Under the pieces are notes generated by a model. The model worked only from the letters and a program-made list of their open reading frames with translations, did no database searches and was not told the origin of the DNA. Below are positions 6,680 through 63,338 of a stretch of DNA of 64,000 nucleotides, piece by piece. Both the position numbers and the translations under genes were made by a program. The DNA lies in the NCBI GenBank assembly GCA_029204225.1, contig CM055092.1:77128117-77192116 (forward strand). The letters run 5' to 3'. Position 1 is the stretch's first letter. Every line of letters starts with the position of its first letter. This DNA comes from Diphasiastrum complanatum (taxonomy: Eukaryota; Streptophyta; Lycopodiopsida; Lycopodiales; Lycopodiaceae).

Positions 6680-7190
6680 AGTGGAGAGGTGCCCCTGCAT
6701 TCTCTCTTGTTCCCTCCAGCTCTTCAAACCTAGCTTCGAGCTGTGTTAACATGTCTCTCATTTCTCTAGCAAGGTCGATGGTTCATGGCTCGCAAGGATG
6801 CTTGCCATTCTTTCCTTTCTGTTTCTCTATCCTTCTTCACCTCAATAAGCATAGCCATCATTGCACTTGATAAGTGTTGCCGCATCTTCACTTCAAAGAG
6901 GTCTTATTGTGCCTCTGGTATGGGTTCGTCTCTTGGTGTAGGTTCAAAAGGGGCACCCATCTCTTCTTGGGGAGGTGCCATTGTGGAGTGCATACACTCT
7001 TTCTTTCTCGACTTGGATCTGGCGCCATCTCTCGATGCACGCGAGAGCCATATTCTCGAACCTGCTCTTCTCCGTCTGTCAATGCTCGTAACTCATCAAG
7101 GTGGTCATCCATTTTGATAAGAGGTGTACTTCCAACAGATTGTCTTCTCTGTCTTTTTGAAAACTCTCCCGTATGTCGGCCGGGCCCCAC
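6680..7190 (-). pseudogene. gypsy gag N-terminus, frameshifted
   Basis: The minus-strand ORF at 6888-7190 is charged and low-complexity. It is followed in other frames by MLIEVKKDRETERKEWQ and then MRDMLTQLEARFEELEG, a coiled-coil-like stretch. The position just before the capsid domain suggests the gag N-terminus, broken by at least two frameshifts. Confidence 0.6.
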
Positions 7191-7460
7191 AGCTCTCTTG
7201 TCTTCTTTATTAAATCAGCTTCAATATGAAAGTATCCCCTCCTCAAACTAGCACGCTCATATCACTTGAGAGCCAAGTAGGAACCATGTCATTTGTGTCC
7301 AAGCAAGCGCGCAACAGATAGAACATACCAACCAAAGCTAACACAAAGGATTCCTCTCAAGCCACATCCCCCCTGAGACAGGACGTAGGACCTTTGCCTA
7401 GCCACACCCACACAGATCTATCACATAATTAGCCCATGGGGAGACATCCATCCAACCATC

Positions 7461-51659: not shown

Positions 51660-52550
51660 GATTTTCGGCACTAGCTATTACTGCTGCTAAGGAGGTCATG
51701 TCCCCTTGTCTGCAATACCGATCAAGCTTTGGTGGTAAACCAGCCAAAAATTATTCGATCTGCATATCAACGGGATATACACCGGTTAGTTTTCCTATAA
51801 GATTTTTAACCTTTCGTGTATATTTTCGAAGAGATTCTTTAGTCTTCTTCTGAACATTGTTCAGACGTCCAAGAATTCTAGATTTATAATCGATTTCTCT
51901 GAACTGGTTCAGAAACGCATCTTCAATAGTAACCAAGTTCCTACGCAGCCTGGTTCAACTTGACTGTACCATATGCGTGCTTGCTTTCTTTGGTGGTAAA
52001 CCAGCCAAAAACCATTCGATCTACATATCCACGGAATATACACCGGTTAGTTTTCCTATGAGATTTTTAACCTTTCATGTATATTTGCGAAGGGATTCTT
52101 TACTCTTCTTCTGAACATTGTTCAGACGTTCGAGAATTCTAGATTTGTAACCTATCTTTCTAAACTGCAGAAATGCATCTTTGAGCAGGTACCAAGTTCC
52201 TACATGGCCTGGTTCAACTTGACTATACCAGATGCGCGCCTGCTTTCTTAGCAGACCATGGAAGATTTGTAGTTTGTCTACGTCAGTACCTTCGTTATTT
52301 GCATTAGCTATTTGTGAGACATAGTTATCTACATCATCGGAAGAAGTCCCTTTAAAATAATCGTATTTAATTTTAGAGATAGAAGTGAAACGTGCAGCAA
52401 GACCCTTCATACCGAAGCTAATTGGGAGTTCAAGTAACTGGGCAATGGTTTTGTCTAGATTTCTTCGACTAATACTTTCACTTTGTCTTTGTAAAAATTC
52501 CTCTCTAAGCTTATGGTATCGTTATAATCTAAATTCTCTATTTGACATAC
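51660..52550 (-). pseudogene. Ty3/gypsy gag with in-frame internal duplication
   Basis: From the ATG near 52550 (MSNREFRL) the minus strand reads ELPISFGMKGLAARFTSISK, FHGLLRKQARIWYSQVEPG and SRILERLNNVQKKSKESLRK. A 261-bp segment (87 codons) is tandemly repeated (from 51727 and 51988 in plus coordinates), so the last block and KVKNLIGKLTGVYPVDMQIE occur twice. Some stops are present. It follows the primer site and LTR at 52.6-53.5 kb and is the start of that element. Confidence 0.85.
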
Positions 52551-53514: not shown

Positions 53515-54410
53515 AATAGGTGCGTCGCTCCCGCGTGGAAAAGAAACTTAATACTAGCTTGAAAGTATTAAGAAGTGATAATGGAGGGGAGTACATCTCC
53601 AATAGGATGAAAGAGTTTTGTGAAACTAATGGCATAAGGAGAGAGTTTATTTGCACATATACTCCACAACAAAATGGAGTAGCTGAGAGAAAGAATAGAA
53701 CACTATGTGAGTGTGCTAAAGCTTTGAGATTAGATGCATCCCTTCCTATTTCATTTTGGGGAGAAGCTACTTTATGTGCAAACTTTCTATGTAATAGAAT
53801 GACTAATAGCACCTGATGAAGTATTGTATGGCAAAAAGCCAAATCTTAGTGATTTGAAAGTTTCTGGATGTACTTGTTATGTACATTTTTCTTTAGAAAC
53901 AAGGAAAAAGGAAGATGCCACTTCTTTCAAAGGCATCTTTGTTGGTTATAGTGAAAGTAAGAAAGCTTATAGGATATTTGATCCTATTACCAAGAAAGTT
54001 GTTGTAAGTAGAGATGTACTTTTTGATGAATTTCTCCAAGCCAAAGGAAAGGTTACTTCCAACAACACTCAACTTGTCAAGGAACATGCTATGGCCGAGG
54101 AGGAGCTTCATGAAGATGAAGACCAAGTGAAACTTACTCAAAGTCCAAGTGTGCCAAGAAGATCAACAAGGACAAGGATTGAGCCATCAAGGCTCACTTA
54201 TAACGACAAGGGGAGCAAAGGGAAGATTCTCAACTACTCAACTCTTATACTTTCTTGACTACTATGCTTGAAGAACCAACTAGTATTGAGGAAGCAAATG
54301 AGTCTCAATATTGGAGGAAAGCTATGCAAGTAGAGTTTGATGCATTAATGGAAAATCAAGCTTGGAAGCTTGTCGGTACTGATTTTGGTGAGGCATGTGT
54401 GTTTCCTCCA
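53515..54410 (+). pseudogene. Ty1/copia integrase and start of RT
   Basis: 53520-53816 has KVLRSDNGGEYISNRMKEFC with the second Asp and PQQNGVAERKNRTLCECAKA with the Glu. After a stop, 53824-54258 has SGCTCYVHFSLETRKKEDAT and FVGYSESKKAYRIF, then an acidic linker. 54262-54370 begins RT (EEANESQYWRKAMQ). The sequence then breaks off at about 54400. The 5' join lies at the outer edge of the gypsy LTR. Confidence 0.88.
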
Positions 54411-54899
54411 AGGTAAAAAGATGCTTTGCTATCCCGCAAAGACTCAGACAACCAACAAGAGGCTGTAGCAGGCTATCAAACAACCACAAAATCTACAAGC
54501 CTTGTGTGCTGAAAATTTCAGCCTGAAATTGCAACTCAAAAAATAGCAAGCAAAGAATTAGGTTAGCCTCGAACAAAGCTTTTTTCAGAACTTGCCAAAA
54601 TGAACAATACACACACGGATAGGGTTGTTGCAACAGCCTACAAATGGCAATATGTTGTCCAATTTTCAGCCTCGAAATGTGATCGGATTATCACAAAAAA
54701 ATTAGCGCCTTCTTCTACATCTGGAAACGAGCAAAAATAAGTAGATATTCACTTTGTAAAAATCAGCAAGGATGCTGATTTTTCAATCAGAAGAATAGAA
54801 ATTGTTTGTAGATGGATGCCCTCCTACAAAAGGAGCATATATGAAAAATAGGACAACAACAGACCAATGGAAGTAGGATAAACCTACACGGAGGGTGAC
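54411..54899. other. no recognisable feature
   Basis: The junction between the copia fragment and the histone-fold region. GTGATCGGATTATCAC at about 54680 is a small inverted repeat that does not match the A/B half-sites. Confidence 0.4.
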
Positions 54900-55086
54900 C
54901 TAAAAGAAGCCCCGAAGAAGATAATTAATGGCGCCTTCCTGCAATCTGAAAAATCAGCGAAAAATCCACTGATCTTTGAGCACCCAAAAATTAAAAAAGT
55001 ATTTGGCATTGCATACGGTATACCAACCACAGCTGACAGAATCAACCTATTGGGAGGACTGCAGAATCCAAATTTTAACATTATGA

Positions 55087-55156
55087 GATATCGGATCAAC
55101 GCACAAGATGTTAGAATAAAATCTACAACGGGAACAAGCGCGCGTCAAACTGATTT
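55087..55156 (+). repeat. palindromic unit 1 (A-B orientation), inside an intron
   Basis: Half-site A GATATCGGATCAACGCAC at 55087 and half-site B (reverse) GCGCGTCAAACTGATTT near 55138. It lies in the 199-bp second intron of the protease gene, which units 1 and 2 nearly fill. Confidence 0.85.
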
Positions 55157-55172
55157 CAAAACAATATTGATT

Positions 55173-55245
55173 GAATATCGGATCAGCGCGCACATTATGA
55201 AAATAAACCAATCAATAACTACAAGGGTGCGTCGAACCGATATTG
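55173..55245 (+). repeat. palindromic unit 2 (A-B)
   Basis: A: GAATATCGGATCAGCGCGC; B (reverse): TGCGTCGAACCGATATTG. It lies in the same intron as unit 1, about 17 bp after it. Confidence 0.88.
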
Positions 55246-56103
55246 AAAAATTTATACCTCTGCATCAACCATTTTCAGTTTTGAATATGCTTTTGCATTT
55301 GGTACTGGAAAGAGTTCTAGTATTTTCTGGATATAGATCCTAGCAATTTTGTGTGTGTGTGTGTGTGTAATAGAGTTCATCTTTAAACAAACTGGATTAC
55401 ACGCACCCTCATCATTGACGTACAAGGACAATACATATAAGCTCCAATGATCACTGCAATCAGAAAACAATAAATTTATGAGAATCAATGTGAAATCAAA
55501 ATTCATTTAAAAAATTAAATATAATAAAATCTGAAAAAAGACACTCACTTTGTTATGTATGGAAGCATGAGAATTGGAGTCCTCAGTCTGATGTATTGGA
55601 GCATATCATCGTGCAAACTTTTAAAACCAGGGACATCAAATGTAGCCATGAATTGAAGGGGAAACAATGCAACATCTATAAACAATGGGGTCTGGAAAAA
55701 CTCCATCCAATACTGAATTGCCCCACCTCCTACATTGTCCCCTAGCATTTTATCCTACTTTCTAATTCACTTGTATCTAATCTAGAAAGGGGGAGACCAG
55801 AATTGGTCTTCGGCATCCTAAAACTATATCGAGGACCTAAACCATTAAGATACGTGTTTAACAATTGATCATACTGTACATATTGAGGAGTATTTATAAA
55901 GGCAAGTGCAGGGGGTGACGAAAGTAATACAAATAAACCACAAAAAGAATTGTCATTCAAAATTGATTCTACCTTTACACTAACAAAATCATCTAAATTG
56001 TTTCCAAGAACAAGAAGAGAGGAACTAATATTTACGGGGTTAGAAGCAGGAGGAGATTTAGGAGGTGGAGATTTATTAGGAGAGGAAGATTTAGCAGGAA
56101 AAG

Positions 56104-56680
56104 TTAAAGATGGAGTTCTGAGAGGATAAGAATGAGACTAGGAGGAGAATTAGGAGGAGAATGCCTAGAAGAAAGAATAGTATTCAGAGGAGATGGCTTG
56201 GAAAAATCTCTCGCTTTATTTGGACGGTCATGAGACCTCTTCTTCTTTGAAACACTCCCGCTCTGTATATGAATAACAAGCCGGGTTGGTTGAGATTGCT
56301 TTCGTTTTCTCCTCTCTGAATCTTGTTTTTGAGGAGAGGAGGGAGCAGGTCTAAAGTATTCTACAAACTTGTCATATGTGTCCCAAAGCCTGAACACAAT
56401 GTTAAAATCCTTGGGCACGATGGTCACCCTCTTGCCATGGACAGCTGCAACAACAGTATTTGAAAAAAATTTCACCTGAAAATCCTCATATGCTGTGTGC
56501 AGCATCTCAATTGCCGTTACAGTCCATCTCACATCTGCAGATAGACTTCTTGTAACATCTCTGATGGACTCTATATTTGAGATTTTGGAATCAAAAGATT
56601 ATTTGTCTTCTGAAGCTTCCGAATATTCTTGAGCCAAGGTGGGTCTCTTCTTCTGCCCCTTGGACTAGGAGGAGGTGGTG
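56104..56680 (-). pseudogene. histone H3-like fold
   Basis: This is the H3 part of the gene above. The segment AIEMLHTAYEDFQVKFFSNT with VVAAVHGKRVTIVPKD matches the H3 alpha2-loop2-alpha3 region with the same spacing. The canonical ARTKQTARK tail is absent and is replaced by a Pro/Arg-rich tail. After the fold comes WDTYDKFVEYFRPAPSS and a basic region (RRKRKQSQP, KKKRSHDRP) likely to bind DNA or act as a nuclear signal. H3-like divergence of this kind occurs in centromeric H3 variants, but no specific CENH3 feature is recognised. Confidence 0.78.
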
Positions 56681-56780
56681 GTGGACGAGATGGTGGTTGT
56701 GGATTTCCCTGACCCACACCTGAAATTGGTATTCCACCTGAATGACCTCATGTCTACTTGGTCCGCGCCATTAATGTGTA

Positions 56781-56850
56781 GTATCAGATCAGCGCGCAAT
56801 AATGTTGATTTCAGGATCAGACCTCAGGTCGGACGTGTCGAAGCGATACC
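56781..56850 (+). repeat. palindromic unit 3 (A-B)
   Basis: A: GTATCAGATCAGCGCGC; B (reverse): GGACGTGTCGAAGCGATACC. It lies just upstream of the proline-rich start of the H3 region, in a probable intron or leader. Confidence 0.85.
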
Positions 56851-56874
56851 TGAGCTCAACAAATCCGTTAGCTG

Positions 56875-56945
56875 GTAGCGGATGGACGCGCGCGAGTAAT
56901 AACGGATTGAAGGAAGATGGTTTCAAGCGCGCTGAATCGATATCG
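56875..56945 (-). repeat. palindromic unit 4 (B-A)
   Basis: Left arm B-like GTAGCGGATGGACGCGCGC; right arm A (reverse) GCGCGCTGAATCGATATC. It is inverted relative to unit 3 and 24 bp from it. Confidence 0.85.
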
Positions 56946-57313
56946 CATGTATGCAAATAACTATAAGCAAGAAAAATTCAACATCATAGATCAGTATATA
57001 TAGAGAAAATAAAAAATGATTGCAAACGTGGTGGTTTGGATGTCCGAGGCTCAGATTACGATGATGATTATTCCGAGGCTTGTCAATCAAATCAAACTGA
57101 ATATCCATCAGTCATCAAAATGATAAGTCCATATCGAATAAACCAGAATTAATTTCATAAAGTATGGTCACATCTACAATTAATGCTACAAAATTATGCT
57201 ATCACACTTCTACCATTTAATGCTGAAATTGACAACGTTAAACTTTAAATATCAGACCTTTTTTATATCCAATAATTATAATTTTGGAAAATTCCAAAGG
57301 CCAGATTTTCACC

Positions 57314-57387
57314 CGATAGCTAATCGACGCGCATATAAAGCATTTGAAAACCAGATTTTGTATTCTCGCGGGCTCATCTGATATTGG
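57314..57387 (-). repeat. palindromic unit 5 (B-A)
   Basis: Left arm CGATAGCTAATCGACGCGC (B); right arm TCGCGGGCTCATCTGATATT (A, diverged). It is upstream of the possible first exon at 57108. Confidence 0.82.
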
Positions 57388-57525
57388 ATAAAATATGAAT
57401 GATTAAAGCTTGATTTGATAGATTCTGCATAACTTTGGCCAATATGAAGTGTCTTCCGAATCAAGCTTTGATCATGCAAATAGGGTCCAATAGTTTCAAA
57501 ATTTTCAATAATATTTTTGTTCCTA

Positions 57526-57597
57526 GAATAGCGATTCGACGCGCGCAACCCAAATGTAGCATACCCATCGTCTGCCAGGCGCGCTGATCCGATATCC
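57526..57597 (-). repeat. palindromic unit 6 (B-A)
   Basis: Left arm AATAGCGATTCGACGCGCGC (B); right arm GCGCGCTGATCCGATATC (perfect A). Confidence 0.88.
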
Positions 57598-58090
57598 CAT
57601 TCGCAGAAAAATCATACTGGAACGCATAATGAAAGACTTATAAAAATATTCTGAATAAATATTATCTCAAAAAAAAAATTCGTCTTTACAGTGCTTAAAT
57701 AGGACAAGAGATTGTAATAATTCTTCTCGTACACGTTTTTCAATGATATCCATTAATCATTTGTTTATAATTGGTTCAATGATTATTCTAGGAGGCTAGT
57801 GATTGTCTATTTAATGTATTATGGCATAGGTACAGATTCTAGGGTCAGGGCTAATGATGATTCGTTGAATCTAGTGATAGACTAGTTAATGTATTCTGGC
57901 ATAGGTACAAATTTGTCTCACTCTGATTGGTGGATAAATATAGGCTGTATTTCACAATTCTTTATTTGACAAATGTATGGCTGTGATCAACAAGAATTGG
58001 CTATAAATATGGGCACCACTTTTCATATTTCGATTTCGTAATCTTTTATTCTGAACTCTCTAGTCTTCTTGTTTTTTTTTTTCCTTCTCG
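57598..58090. other. spacer between units 6 and 7
   Basis: AT-rich, no ORF. GTGATTGTCTATTTAATGTAT and GTGATAGACTAGTTAATGTAT lie at about 57800 and 57872 as a diverged ~75-bp tandem repeat (with GGCATAGGTACA). Confidence 0.5.
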
Positions 58091-58163
58091 CAATATCGAA
58101 TCGACGTGCGCCATCCCAAACTGTGCATGCTCGTATTCATTCAAGCACGCTGAATCGATATCA
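58091..58163 (-). repeat. palindromic unit 7 (B-A)
   Basis: Left arm CAATATCGAATCGACGTGCG (B); right arm GCACGCTGAATCGATATC (A). Confidence 0.88.
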
Positions 58164-58210
58164 GCCACTTCCGACGAGTGCTTTTCGAAAAATTTCATTC
58201 TCGGCCTTAC

Positions 58211-58283
58211 CATATCAGATCAGCATGCGCACTTTGCTTTATTCCTCTACCGATATTTATCTCTCGCGTTGAATCGATATCGG
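58211..58283 (+). repeat. palindromic unit 8 (A-B), abutting a start codon
   Basis: Left arm CATATCAGATCAGCATGCGC (A); right arm CTCGCGTTGAATCGATATCG (B with a C-to-T change at a CpG). The plus-strand ATG at 58291 follows 7 bp later. Confidence 0.85.
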
Positions 58284-58290
58284 GTTCAAT

Positions 58291-59830
58291 ATGGCTAGTT
58301 CCTCCATGGCCTCAGATGATAAACTTATGGATTTTTTTAATGCCAATGACATTCCATCTCACAAATTAGAGTATTTTGCTAGTATTTTTTTTGCTCCCTT
58401 CGATATCGATAAGCTAGTTTATGAGAATCATTATAATTTAATTTCTTATCTTGATAATTTTTCTCAGATTATTAGTACTCCTGTTTTGGATATAAATAAT
58501 TTTTGTTTCGTTCATTTTTAGGACCTTGTACATTCCCAACCATCATCTAAACATAAACACAATAAAAAATACTCTAACATGCATGACCATTTCAAAAGAA
58601 ATATATACTGTGATATTTACAAAAGAATATGTCGTCTTCTAATCAAAGGAATGGCTTTTGTCTTCTACATATCTGTTGAAATTCTAGATGATGGGTCTTT
58701 TGAACCTTCAACTATTCCATTGATCAAAGCATCTGCACATGTTCCAGTTGATGTAAATGATGCAGATACTGATTCAGAGTTGAAGTTGAAGCATCTATGG
58801 CTTCAAATTATCAAAAAACTCTCCCTCGTTCTATAATCCTCTCTGATTCTCCTCCATCTGCATCTCCTGCTAATCAATTAACTCTACTCAATGTTCCTTT
58901 ATATTTTTTAAATAATGAATGTTATATTTCATTTAATGATATAGAAAATATATTGAATTTGAGAGAGGATGAAATTCTCTCAATTTTTGTTTAAAATTTA
59001 TTAGAATTTCTTGACATTGTTGATTACTCATATGATGACCTTGAAAGTGAGATACATTATAATAAAGATGACAATTGAAAATCTGGCAATGAGGCCTTGG
59101 AGGCCATGATTAAAAAATCTAAAGCCTATGAAAAAACTTTGCTTACAGAGGAAGAATTTTTGGAATTTCAAAAAAGATATCCCCCTAGAGCTAGATATAT
59201 CCCCTCCGAAAATGTAGAGGCCATTGGAGGCCATGACATTAGCAGAGCAAACGTCGTTGATTACGATGATTATGATCTGGTAAGTAGATATTATATTGGT
59301 ATTGATATTGTTCAGTTTTCTTATTTTTTATTGGTATTGATATTGTTCAGTTTTCTTATTGAGTTTGCAGTGTTATGTTTCATTCTAAATTTTTTTTCTT
59401 TTCTCGTTAACAAGATGCTACTGAAATAAATGCCTTTGGTATGAGACATGGAGGCGTCCGAGGTGTATCAGCCGGGAGAAAAGATGTTTTTCTATCTCAT
59501 TATTTGAAAAACTTTTAAAATAATGAGATTTGTATATATCATTCATCTTATAATCCATATGCAACCACTGTCATTATGGCCATCAAATCATTATCAGTTT
59601 GTTTAGGAGGCCATAAATACGCAAGAGAAACATATAAAATAATTTTTGTGAAAAGAGATTTGGCTATAAGATATTGGATTATACTCCCAATGAGACTACA
59701 AAAAAATCATCTGCAATGGCCCTTTATTCGGGTTACATTGATATGAGTAAGAGGTTCGAATTAATTTTTGGATCCATATGAAAGAAGATTATTCCTTCAT
59801 GACAATACCATCTGTTTGAATCTTGAAGAA
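58291..59830 (+). pseudogene. unknown gene beside the palindromic units
   Basis: The ATG at 58291 (MASSSMASDDKLMDFFNAND) opens a frame that continues past a TAG at 58519 to about 58836. A shifted frame then runs from about 58797 through two stops to RYPPRARYIPSENVEAIGGH and DYDDYDL. GTAAGT at 59281 may start an intron; after it come INAFGMRHGGVRGVSAGRKD, YNPYATTVIMAIKSLSVCLG and ETYKIIFVKRDLAIRYW. The likely acceptor does not keep phase, so the splice is uncertain. The intron candidate contains a 33-bp direct repeat (59294 and 59328). No family is recognised. Confidence 0.5.
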
Positions 59831-59877
59831 GAAGATGATGATAATTAAATAATTTTCTGTGATAGATTTTTGATATA

Positions 59878-62504
59878 TTACAAAGATCTCTCTTTTGTAA
59901 TGAATTTGAATGACTTTTGAAATATCGTAACATTTGGCGAGTTTTTAACTTGATATCTAAATTGTGTTCTTCTATAAAACCACTGAAAACGTTGAACTAA
60001 ATATTTATTTCTTGAATTGGGTCCTCCATGATTTGTTGTTCTATGAAATGCTCCCCTTGCTTGCCAATAAAATTTTTCCATGCCTTGTGATGACCAGATA
60101 CTTAAGCTCCCATATTCCTGTGCAAAATAAGTTGCATGATGAAGAAGGATGTACTGCAAACAATAGTTTTGATTAGTTACATCAGTAGAAAAAAATATAA
60201 GTCTGATAATGATATAGATTAGCTCCATGTAATGAGTAACGTTGTCTTTTCTCCAACAATTATGTACAAATTTTACAAATGTGGTGCAATGATTTTGCAA
60301 AGTCCTCATATCTTCTGATGATAGGTTTTCTTTCCTGATAGCACCTATGAGTTTGTCTAAATTGGTCCACACTTGTCCCTTTTCCACTCGATTACTTCCT
60401 TCCAATGTTCGTGTGGCTTGAACAATTTCTCTCCATATTTTGTATCTGACACTTGATTTTTTGCATGTGTGATTGGATAAGAATTTTCTTGCTTTAGCAC
60501 CTCCAATTGATGGCTTATTAGAAACGTTTCCTTTTTTCCCGGAGAGTCTGTCACTTTTTTCAATCGTGACATTCTCTTTATGTAGTCCTGTATTTGACAG
60601 AACTATTTCCAACCTCCTAATTGCTGCTTTAGCCACTGACTCTGGTTTATGATTCCATGTTAGTAATATGCAGGTAAATTAGTTTTTCAATAATACGAAC
60701 CTCAGCATGCAATGTACATACGTGAACATATTTTAATGAAATTGGCATAACACTTTTCATATTTGAATCTTCAACTTCTCGTATTGGGCCAGTGTTTGTT
60801 GATCGTCCCAAATTCATATTGTAGCAATCCTTCATACAATAAAGACATGGATGTTTTGATGTTGCTTCATGAGAGACATTATACATACATTTTAATGGTA
60901 TTCAAATCCCCTACAAGGTGCCATTGAATTTGAAAACTTCCATGATTTTTTACTGTAAATTTCTCACCCTCCAAATGTCTCTTTATAATCTCGCCATAAT
61001 TTGTTCTTGAAAATATCCATGATAGTATTTTATGGTCCTCTTTCAAGACTTGTAGAGAAATAAGTAATGCATGACATGTTAATAAAAACTAGAAAGATAT
61101 GAATTGTTAATATAGATATTCTAAATACAAACACTAAACGTTCGATCATCTCTATCTGAAATTTTGTTCATCAAAGTGACACTCAGACGTTCCAACTTCT
61201 GACCCTTGATGATTTCAGATTCATTCAATTCTATAACAATAATGATCTTTCCATTTACTTGATGTTCGTCTAGTTTATAGAATCGAATAATGTATTTTAA
61301 AACATTTTCAATATCAAGGAAAATATTACTGCAATCGTTGTAATTGAGCTTACCATATTCTGATTTGTATAATTCAGTTATATAAAATGGTTGGCCAACT
61401 ACTTTAAACAGTCCGTCATTATAAAAATTTCTAGCTAATCTTACCCGATATGGACGTGGAAGATTAATTTTCTTCACCATCACTTGTAAAAAAACTTCTT
61501 TAACTATTCTAAAAAAAGTAGAATAAGCATTTCTGCTAATTCCAGATACATCACATGCACCTTGTATCACATTCGCATCCAAGTATGATTGAACCTTAAT
61601 CAAAACAATCTTTACAATTTCATTTTTCATTTTTTCAAACCGAGCATTTTTTATCATTTTCTTTACTTACTTTTTTGGTAAAACATGACTTAAAGATGAT
61701 CCAATGCATGAACGATCTGTTAAATAGTTCTTTGCCGCCAAACATGATCTACAACAAACATATAAAACTCAAACTATGTTTAATAAATAGATAATTCATG
61801 TTATAAAGTGCAAATCAAACTTAAATAACATATACAAATCAAATAAATAGTTTAGATGACAACATACTTGAATGCTCAAATTCTGTTTTTCTAATTGCCT
61901 CTATGTGTAGATAAGTCATCAATATTCTTCATTGATACTCTCTTTCTTTTCCTCTTCATCATTGTCTTATTGATAACTTTTAGATCAACAGCAGATTTTA
62001 AGCTCTCGAATCGCAACTTTTCCATGGATTCTAACATTTCTTGGTTTGATCCTCGAAGAGTAGTGACAGTAGCGTTCAACTCTGATAAAACATTCTTGAG
62101 TGCATTGTTTTCAGCACTAGTGTGTTGCACATAATGAAGCAATTGTTGATTAGCAACTATAATTGTTGATTAAGACAAGATATGCTATGCATTCCAATAT
62201 CACGCAACCTTTGACAATATCCAAGTAATCCGCTATTTCCTTCACATACATATCTGAGAAGATGAGTCACAGACTTAAAATCTGGACACAAATTGGTAGC
62301 TGAATCATTAGAATAAATTGATTCATCCACCCACAAATCTATATTCATATGATTATTCATTCTCAATTTTCTAACTATTGTTGCAACATTCTCTACAAGT
62401 TTTGCATTTTTCTTAATAATTGGAGTGCATTCCATCGGAAGAGCAACATACAAATGGAACATTGCCGTTGTTAAAACTACAATCATGTAAATGAATCTAT
62501 CCAC
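59878..62504 (-). pseudogene. transposase-like gene, multi-exon, family unassigned
   Basis: Minus-strand pieces, in order: a helical N-terminus (62157-62504); a coiled coil with a nuclear-signal-like MKRKRKRVS (61891-62142); LAAKNYLTDRSCIGSSLSHV; a long segment with RNAYSTFFRIVKEVFLQV and ESEIIKGQKLERLSVTLMNK (61121-61657); QIQWHLVGDL; TSKHPCLYCMKDC and VCTLHAEVRIIEKLIYLHI (60647-60886); and the end SQGMEKFYWQARGAFHRTTN-HGG and QRFQWFYRR (59878-60636). Introns with GTATGT and TTGTAG ends are likely near 61700-61875. The block pattern recalls uncharacterised transposase-like proteins from invertebrates and fungi, but I cannot name the family. Stops and frameshifts are frequent. Confidence 0.5.
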
Positions 62505-63338
62505 AGTAAATCAATATGAATAGATATAGCATTTCTTACTTTTGTAATGTTTATGTCGCATTGAAAAATCATCCCGCCTCATATTTCACTATAAGCATAC
62601 AGTGATTTCAAAAGTTTTGCCTCTCCCGCTTCAGTTTTTGCATTGAGCACACCAAGATATTCAGTCTTAAAGCTCTAGTCCCGAATTTTGGAACGAGCAT
62701 GAAGAGAAGTTATTACATCTCATGCTAAACTAACTATTGTCTGAAGTTGACCATACTAGTTAAACGTCGGACAAGGTCGAAAACTCTAAAAACGATGACC
62801 AGAAGTTACCGATTTGCATTCTCTCTCTACGTAACCTCTCTCTAAAGGGCCCATTTTGAGCCCATATTTTTCCTAATGCATGGTACCGTACTTGACATTT
62901 AAGCCCATGACGACTATTGCTAATCCTAGCCCACATATGTGACAATTAGTATACATCCACACCTAAGCTAACTAGGGCCTAGCTCAGTTGCCAATCGATA
63001 TAGTACATGTTTGTCAATCAATCATCTTGGCAATCGGTCCATCCGAGGCATAAGTGGGACTTGACAAAGATGTTTCAATCTAGTCCATTGCAAGTGTTTG
63101 TATTTTCAATCACACAAGACTCAAAATATTTTGCATGAAATTTAACTCTTTGTAGTACTTACGAGTAAATTAGATGTTGAAGATAATGTACAGTGTACAA
63201 TATATGTCGTACAAATTTTCTATAAAATTCGCATTTAAACTTTAAATTTTGGCCAATGCGTAGAAGAATCATATTTTAAACCCTTTTGCAAACAAATTCT
63301 AGTTGAAACTTTAGTACCACTTTTTGTGAAATTTCATG
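62505..63338. other. no recognisable feature
   Basis: AT-rich flank with no ORF motif. If the 54.9-62.5 kb genes are one element, its right end should be in this stretch, but I found no terminal repeat. Confidence 0.4.

Follow-up and report, generated by a model that had tools for sequence, protein, structure and literature searches.

Diphasiastrum complanatum carries a mobile element that has several genes and CATTAG ends and encodes a divergent histone H3. In two families of the element (B and C), a basic linker connects this H3 with a C48 (Ulp1-like) protease domain. A further family (A) carries H3 alone, with no match to the protease queries at E 1e-3 in the 13 family A stretches searched. 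The window, that is, the whole 64,000-nucleotide stretch of DNA that was analysed, holds a decayed copy of the fusion gene that belongs to family C. A first-pass annotation had read an H3-Ulp1 fusion in a mobile-element setting from this locus; that reading is supported by the present analysis, and the fusion is confirmed as real and larger than first described. As to function, the explanation that we favor, at a probability of about 0.42, is escape from silencing, in which an element H3 without K9 and a tethered deSUMOylating activity would let the transposase gene of the element be expressed.

In the window, positions 56771 to 54989 of the minus strand form a single decayed H3-Ulp1 fusion gene, which is truncated at 54989, where homology to seven of the eight family C copies fetched ends. 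Exon 1 (55549..56771) encodes the tail, the H3 domain, the linker and the protease front and is interrupted by stops and frameshifts, with a DNA identity to the family C copies of 84–89% over long pieces. The H3-like N-terminal tail (MARTK.T.GHSGG, 56730..56771) opens with MARTK at 56771, the start of the gene and further upstream than first claimed, and then contains two stops. A proline-rich stretch lies between the tail and the H3 histone-fold domain (56374..56636), which was placed by tblastn and by Pfam Histone, the latter scoring 60 bits (3.5e-16) for the read-through with X at the breaks and 1.2e-10 for the open frame at 56104-56598. By this score the H3 core match proposed in the first-pass annotation is real, but a one-base frame break near 56573 has to be bridged for it to run without gaps, and the alpha-N helix proposed with it is present but in another frame (from 56636) than the core. 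The basic Pro/Ser linker follows 3' of the fold with more frame breaks.

The protease part of the window gene is also on the minus strand and is split by two GT-AG introns. Intron 1 (55454..55548) interrupts the Asn codon that precedes Asp-His-Trp; exon 2 (55258..55453) carries the catalytic His (DHW) and the motif MNS, with Asn where C48 has Asp; intron 2 (55059..55257) contains an inverted motif pair that is complete and another in which one arm has decayed; and exon 3 (54989..55058) reads Q..VDSVSCGWYTVCNAK, providing the protease Gln and Cys, with a single stop immediately upstream of VDSVSCG. Both introns occupy the same positions, codons and phases as introns 1 and 2 of the family B copy L023, which bears out the earlier observation of two phase-consistent introns, and the length of intron 2 is 198–199 bp in six of eight family C copies as well as in the window. 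A (CA)n run in the protease coding part of exon 2 (about 55340-55370) differs in length among family C copies; the frame of the window copy is intact across it, and in none of the six family C copies measured (L035-L040) is it intact. Taken alone, the window copy gives no Pfam C48 match, whether as open frame or as read-through, and the best PDB match of its protease part is SENP8 at E=0.47. The C48 assignment made earlier instead holds through L023, to which the window protease aligns at 3e-19 with 40% identity over 106 residues, spanning DHW and SCGWYT.

Relatives of the window gene keep the two domains together. In family B, H3 and the front of the protease share a single reading frame in L013 and L023 (327 and 331 aa). 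L023, which is the only family B copy that was spliced and the only one shown to be intact throughout, yields a protein of 470 aa without a stop from four exons separated by GT-AG introns. This spliced model matches Histone at 94 bits (8.7e-27), above the cut-off, and Peptidase_C48 at 39.9 bits (5.4e-10, cut-off 20.7), so that both profiles are significant in a single gene model; PDB matches to the same protein include the Ulp1-like SUMO protease 6dg4 (7.6e-4) and yeast Ulp1 1euv (1.3e-3). In L013 a stop interrupts exon 2, and Tyr replaces the catalytic Cys. Among the eight family C copies fetched, L036, L037, L038 and L039 each have an uninterrupted frame, 405–427 aa from stop to stop, that spans H3, the linker and the protease front, and L035 has a frame of 364 aa that ends at a stop. 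The start ATG is present in L035, L038 and L039 and absent in L036 and L037; the Histone cut-off is exceeded by L036 and L038; and the protease front piece of L040 has no Peptidase_C48 match. Open frames joining H3 and protease front are thus found in several copies of both families. The motifs DHW, MNS and Q..SCG place His, Asn, Gln and Cys in order, and the C48 triad is incomplete in families B and C, where the catalytic Asp is replaced by Asn; the domain is therefore named C48-like from its sequence.

The mobile-element setting that had been proposed is borne out by element ends and by neighbor genes matched by tblastn. The left end of the window element lies at 62840..62878, where the minus strand begins CATTAGGAAAAATATGGGCTC with a CATTAGG end at 62878, and the CATTAG start is common to the window, family A (CATTAGGG) and family B (CATTAGAGG); this is the one end located in the window copy, its other end not having been found. 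A decayed transposase-like gene (59938..62414, minus strand) was recognized by alignment and by tblastn against the ORFs of families A and B, with 4.6e-53 as the lowest E, and a candidate D, D, E was picked by eye (KLD, ADLK, QGMEK). This gene has no Pfam match, and the AlphaFold model of a transposase exon, with a pLDDT of 42.0, was too poor to use. The remains of a convergent gene follow at 58357..59842 on the plus strand, where tblastn matches ORFs of family B at E 1.2e-18 and 2e-9. The gene order in family B is transposase-like gene, convergent gene, H3-Ulp1 and two more genes, of which the window retains the first three (62414-59938, 58357-59842 and 56771-54989). One complete copy each was obtained for family A (8955 bp) and family B (9305 bp), with the terminal inverted repeats CATTAGGGCYCTTTTTGGACTC and CATTAGAGGARTT, respectively. 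No target-site duplication was found in any of three insertions, namely the two complete copies and a 1090-bp relative of A that lies inside a family B copy and for which an empty site is available. A few cut-and-paste transposon groups lack a target-site duplication. Searches of Pfam and PHROGs returned nothing above cut-off for the transposase-like gene and the neighbor genes tried, and a search with a single transposase-like protein gave no pattern-level match among viral contigs. Gene 1 of family B (L023:7600-7992, minus strand) was considered as TnsA-like, by the endonuclease N-terminus (E 0.003 and 0.006), or as BAH (E 0.028 at full length), and neither is claimed, all of these matches being below the cut-off.

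Copies of the element are numerous in the genome and mostly broken. In the 1.74 Gb assembly (5176 contigs), a Pfam Histone search gave 153 matches from 6325 first-look candidates, of which 150 were scored. Thirteen of these, at about 1e-45, are canonical in appearance; the divergent rows, among which both stops and open frames of 200–417 aa are common, run from 1.6e-28 to 3.7e-24; and three partial rows stand at 1e-20. Among the matches scored, divergent H3 rows are present on each of C1-C23. The 20 stretches fetched around divergent rows comprise 13 of family A, six of family B and one of another lineage (L024), and at least four H3 lineages of the element type can be distinguished. The H3 part of the window copy has at least 150 matches from 7493 candidates, the listed rows all lying below E 1e-82 at 74–86% identity; a hand count of the 150 listed rows for this family C stretch found at least one stop in 133 and none in 17. 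The family B protease part gave 399 match rows from 8831 candidates, with 150 scored, where several rows may come from one copy and rows are not to be read as copies. Three protease matches (C1:21388893, C1:21361437 and C12:15246328) are unbroken across the exon joints, as if derived from spliced RNA. A further H3-like lineage (KFMEEIKKYQKSTRLLL..) occurs at L024:4518-4910 and 6887-7414 and in L047, where the tail reads MARTKQTARVPSR; L024 also has a family B-like H3 fragment.

The element H3s are recognizably histones, scoring 58–104 bits against Pfam Histone (cut-off 26.4), and in a PDB search with families A and B the 60 rows listed of 179 were all H3. Their cores are 34–58% identical to host canonical H3. 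In an alignment of seven element rows, one of which (L028) is short and leaves the comparison after KDF, the invariant positions are I51, Q55, L61, R83, E97, F104, A111, H113, K115, R116, V117, T118 and R129, and among these we take R83, E97, F104, H113, K115-T118 and R129 to be contact residues for nucleosomal DNA or H4. The motifs LLIP and KDF are presumably shared with plant CENH3. A CENH3 origin, prompted by these motifs, finds no support in a tree that places the element H3 outside H3 plus CENH3, albeit weakly, as the tree comprises 10 rows with CENH3 sequences entered by hand and its support of 88/88 is below the 95/80 mark. An AlphaFold model of the family B H3 exon, at a pLDDT of 35.4, was too poor to use.

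Pairwise counting of substitutions on natural copies gave dN/dS values well below 1 for the H3 and protease domains, and both look constrained. For H3 the ratio was 0.40 in family A (12 copies), 0.24 in family B (6) and 0.37 in family C, values that are biased downward because copies were chosen by H3 score and, in family C, by a lack of stops in H3-plus-linker. This choice should lower the value for the linker alike, which stands at 0.89 in family C, and had no part in the protease values, for which the front and the Cys exon gave 0.39 and 0.20 in family C and two exons gave 0.46 and 0.36 in family B (6 and 5 copies). In family A, the middle region reached 0.65 (12 copies), the tail region 1.49 (12 copies, with few changes over 34 codons) and a neighbor gene 0.39 (10 copies). 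The family C comparison covers eight sequences including the window (seven for the Cys exon) and leaves out L037, a near-duplicate of L036; family A likewise leaves out L012, a near-duplicate of L011. The family C pieces compared contain no stops in H3 or linker, five in the protease front and three in the Cys exon.

In the element tails that were read, K4, the lysine of active marks, is retained, and K9, the lysine of silencing marks, is absent. Tails start with MARTKQTARDPRV in family A, MD(R/K)(R/K)KQTRRDFFS in family B and MARTKQTARGHSGG in family C, and variants exist. Across 26 tails (13 from family A, five of six from family B and eight from family C), K4 and Q5 are present in 26/26 and are the only invariant positions, and K9 is present in 0/26; the window tail also retains K4. 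In family A an in-frame ATG lies four codons upstream of MARTK, which makes the mature start uncertain. A degenerate DNA pattern of MARTKQTAR type, which tolerates Ser at both Arg codons, has 514 sites in the genome and none for the reversed control; the pattern fixes residues 1-8 and thus does not measure their retention. Lysine occupies position 9 at 26 of these sites and is missing there at 488, counts that refer to copies and not to independent events, at least 50 of them lying in one local block. Five more starts, picked for their different spelling, continue after R8 with L, L, PKST, LST and V, and within 500 bp an H3-like core is present in L043, L045 and L046 and at the start of L047, but absent from L044. 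L045 has a lysine one residue past position 9 (ARPKST). The absence of K9 may reflect a mere lack of constraint.

By a hand count, 51 of 100 listed MARTKQTAR-type sites fall in C3 between 18.5 and 21.1 Mb, often 30–50 kb apart, and 50 of the 51 share one spelling group. L043, which lies inside this block, reads MARTKQTARLTHFLQ.. with its H3-like core in a different frame. The sites could have multiplied locally, or the block could be a preferred target, for example a centromere.

A paired motif recurs in the non-coding parts of the element. The 17-bp sequence ATATCGGATCAGCGCGC has 14 sites in the window at up to five mismatches (55088..58280, in either orientation), against 0.75 in plain shuffles, and eight matches at up to three mismatches against 0.05 expected. 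Twelve of the 14 sites form six inverted pairs with 51–52 bp from start to start, and the sites are located in intron 2 and between genes. Two intron 2 pairs are present in six of eight family C copies, and the window has a single complete pair there; in family B, two pairs of similar kind, spaced at 54 bp, adjoin the H3 gene; and family A has no match to the motif. A generic inverted-repeat scan gave mixed results (observed versus shuffle, 18 versus 31 in family B, 36 versus 22 in the window, a weak excess, 36 versus 10 in family A, and 15 versus 16 in a control stretch), and the claim for the motif therefore rests on the mismatch counts and on its recurrence in intron 2.

These features suggest a route by which the element might evade its host. 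Because R83, H113, K115-T118 and R129 are kept, we infer that the element H3 would enter nucleosomes with host H4, on or near the element. H3K9 methylation feeds DNA methylation in plants, and nucleosomes containing the element H3 would accept K4 marks and not H3K9 methylation. In yeast, plants and animals alike, SUMO is described as favoring the silent state of chromatin (PMC8131101), and the tethered protease would remove SUMO from silencing factors at the element, with the paired motifs, about 52 bp apart and non-coding, possibly serving as the address. The outcome would be a local escape from silencing and expression of the transposase gene. It is the tail, with K4 kept and K9 lost, that narrows the proposed role to silencing escape. 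A wider proposal, which we put forward only tentatively and hold to be somewhat doubtful, is that a whole clade of elements encodes its own nucleosomal histone and, with the tethered SUMO protease, writes silencing-proof chromatin on itself; the disappearance of K9 from at least six tail types would then be the trace of an arms race.

Other explanations can be offered for the same features. The H3 might play an architectural or targeting part, packaging the excised element or steering integration, for example to centromeres, with the protease serving to mature the complex or to release it. The presence of the H3 gene in the same element as a transposase-like gene, the retention of nucleosomal contact residues and the concentration of listed tail sites in the C3 block would all suit such a role, but divergent H3 rows are found on each of C1-C23, the C3 block consists almost wholly of one family, and it is left unexplained why K9 should be lost while K4 is kept. 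We regard this role as unlikely. An explanation that also seems improbable to us is histone mimicry, in which the ARTKQTAR tail would bait K4 writers or readers or block H3-tail demethylases, and entry into nucleosomes would be secondary. Mimicry accords well with K4 and Q5 as the sole invariant positions of the 26 tails above a core so far from canonical H3; it accords poorly with the low dN/dS of that core and its retained nucleosomal contacts, and with the ratio of 1.49 in the family A tail region.

It may also be that host H3 and Ulp1 sequences were simply captured and amplified as passengers without a role. Ulp1 genes are carried by plant transposons, most copies of the present element are broken (133 of the 150 listed family C rows have a stop), and no measured family C copy stays in frame across exon 2. 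Against these points stand the dN/dS values, which are well under 1 in both domains beside a near-neutral linker, the sharing of fusion and introns by families B and C despite a protease identity of 40%, and the existence of several H3 lineages of the element type. We consider a mere passenger distinctly improbable.

Ulp1-like genes ride plant transposons of the KI/KAKI group of Mutator-like elements, which are likewise mobile DNA with a C48-type protease gene. The present element differs in that the protease is fused to histone H3, the ends are CATTAG, there is no target-site duplication, and its transposase is not named by any Pfam model. In proposed outcome the element protein resembles VANC, an anti-silencing protein encoded by VANDAL transposons, which targets motifs in non-coding parts of the element (PMC5735166). 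Removal of silencing and clustered short non-coding motifs would be shared with VANC, for which no histone domain is described in the account consulted (PMC5735166); the likeness is drawn by analogy of outcome, with no membership claimed. Viruses are also described as encoding core-histone-like proteins (PMC11500106, PMC9145170), so that these too are cases of selfish DNA with histone genes, although the genes are viral.

To our knowledge, no C48 fusion exists among viral histones. Host H3 and CENH3 share with the element protein the H3 fold and the MARTKQTAR start, while the element H3 is without K9 and diverges in its core; Ulp1/SENP SUMO proteases share the order of His, Gln and Cys, while the element domain has Asn for Asp and an N-terminal histone. 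Within the open-licence literature, as judged from titles and abstract beginnings, neither a transposon-encoded histone nor a histone H3-Ulp1 fusion was found; the same literature returned nothing on a SUMO protease with Mutator elements, or on insertion without target duplication together with a histone. A protein database search at E<=0.001 gave nothing for the window read-through, the window H3 or the family B protein, a result that carries little weight, as the database may contain few plant proteins.

Chromatin is what hosts deploy against transposons, and a histone-encoding element would itself use chromatin in that conflict. The tail with K4 kept and K9 lost makes the silencing-escape reading directly testable. 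The gene would also provide a natural fusion of a histone with a SUMO protease domain, and thereby a possible chromatin-editing tool, and would open another source of histone variants.

Several minor features lie elsewhere in the window. No RNA families or tRNAs were found. On the plus strand, open frames at 53520-54416 were taken by eye as parts of a copia integrase and reverse transcriptase. At 51727-52167 there are two 180-nt direct repeats, 90% alike and 261 bp apart, which are adjoined by an ORF resembling a gypsy gag.
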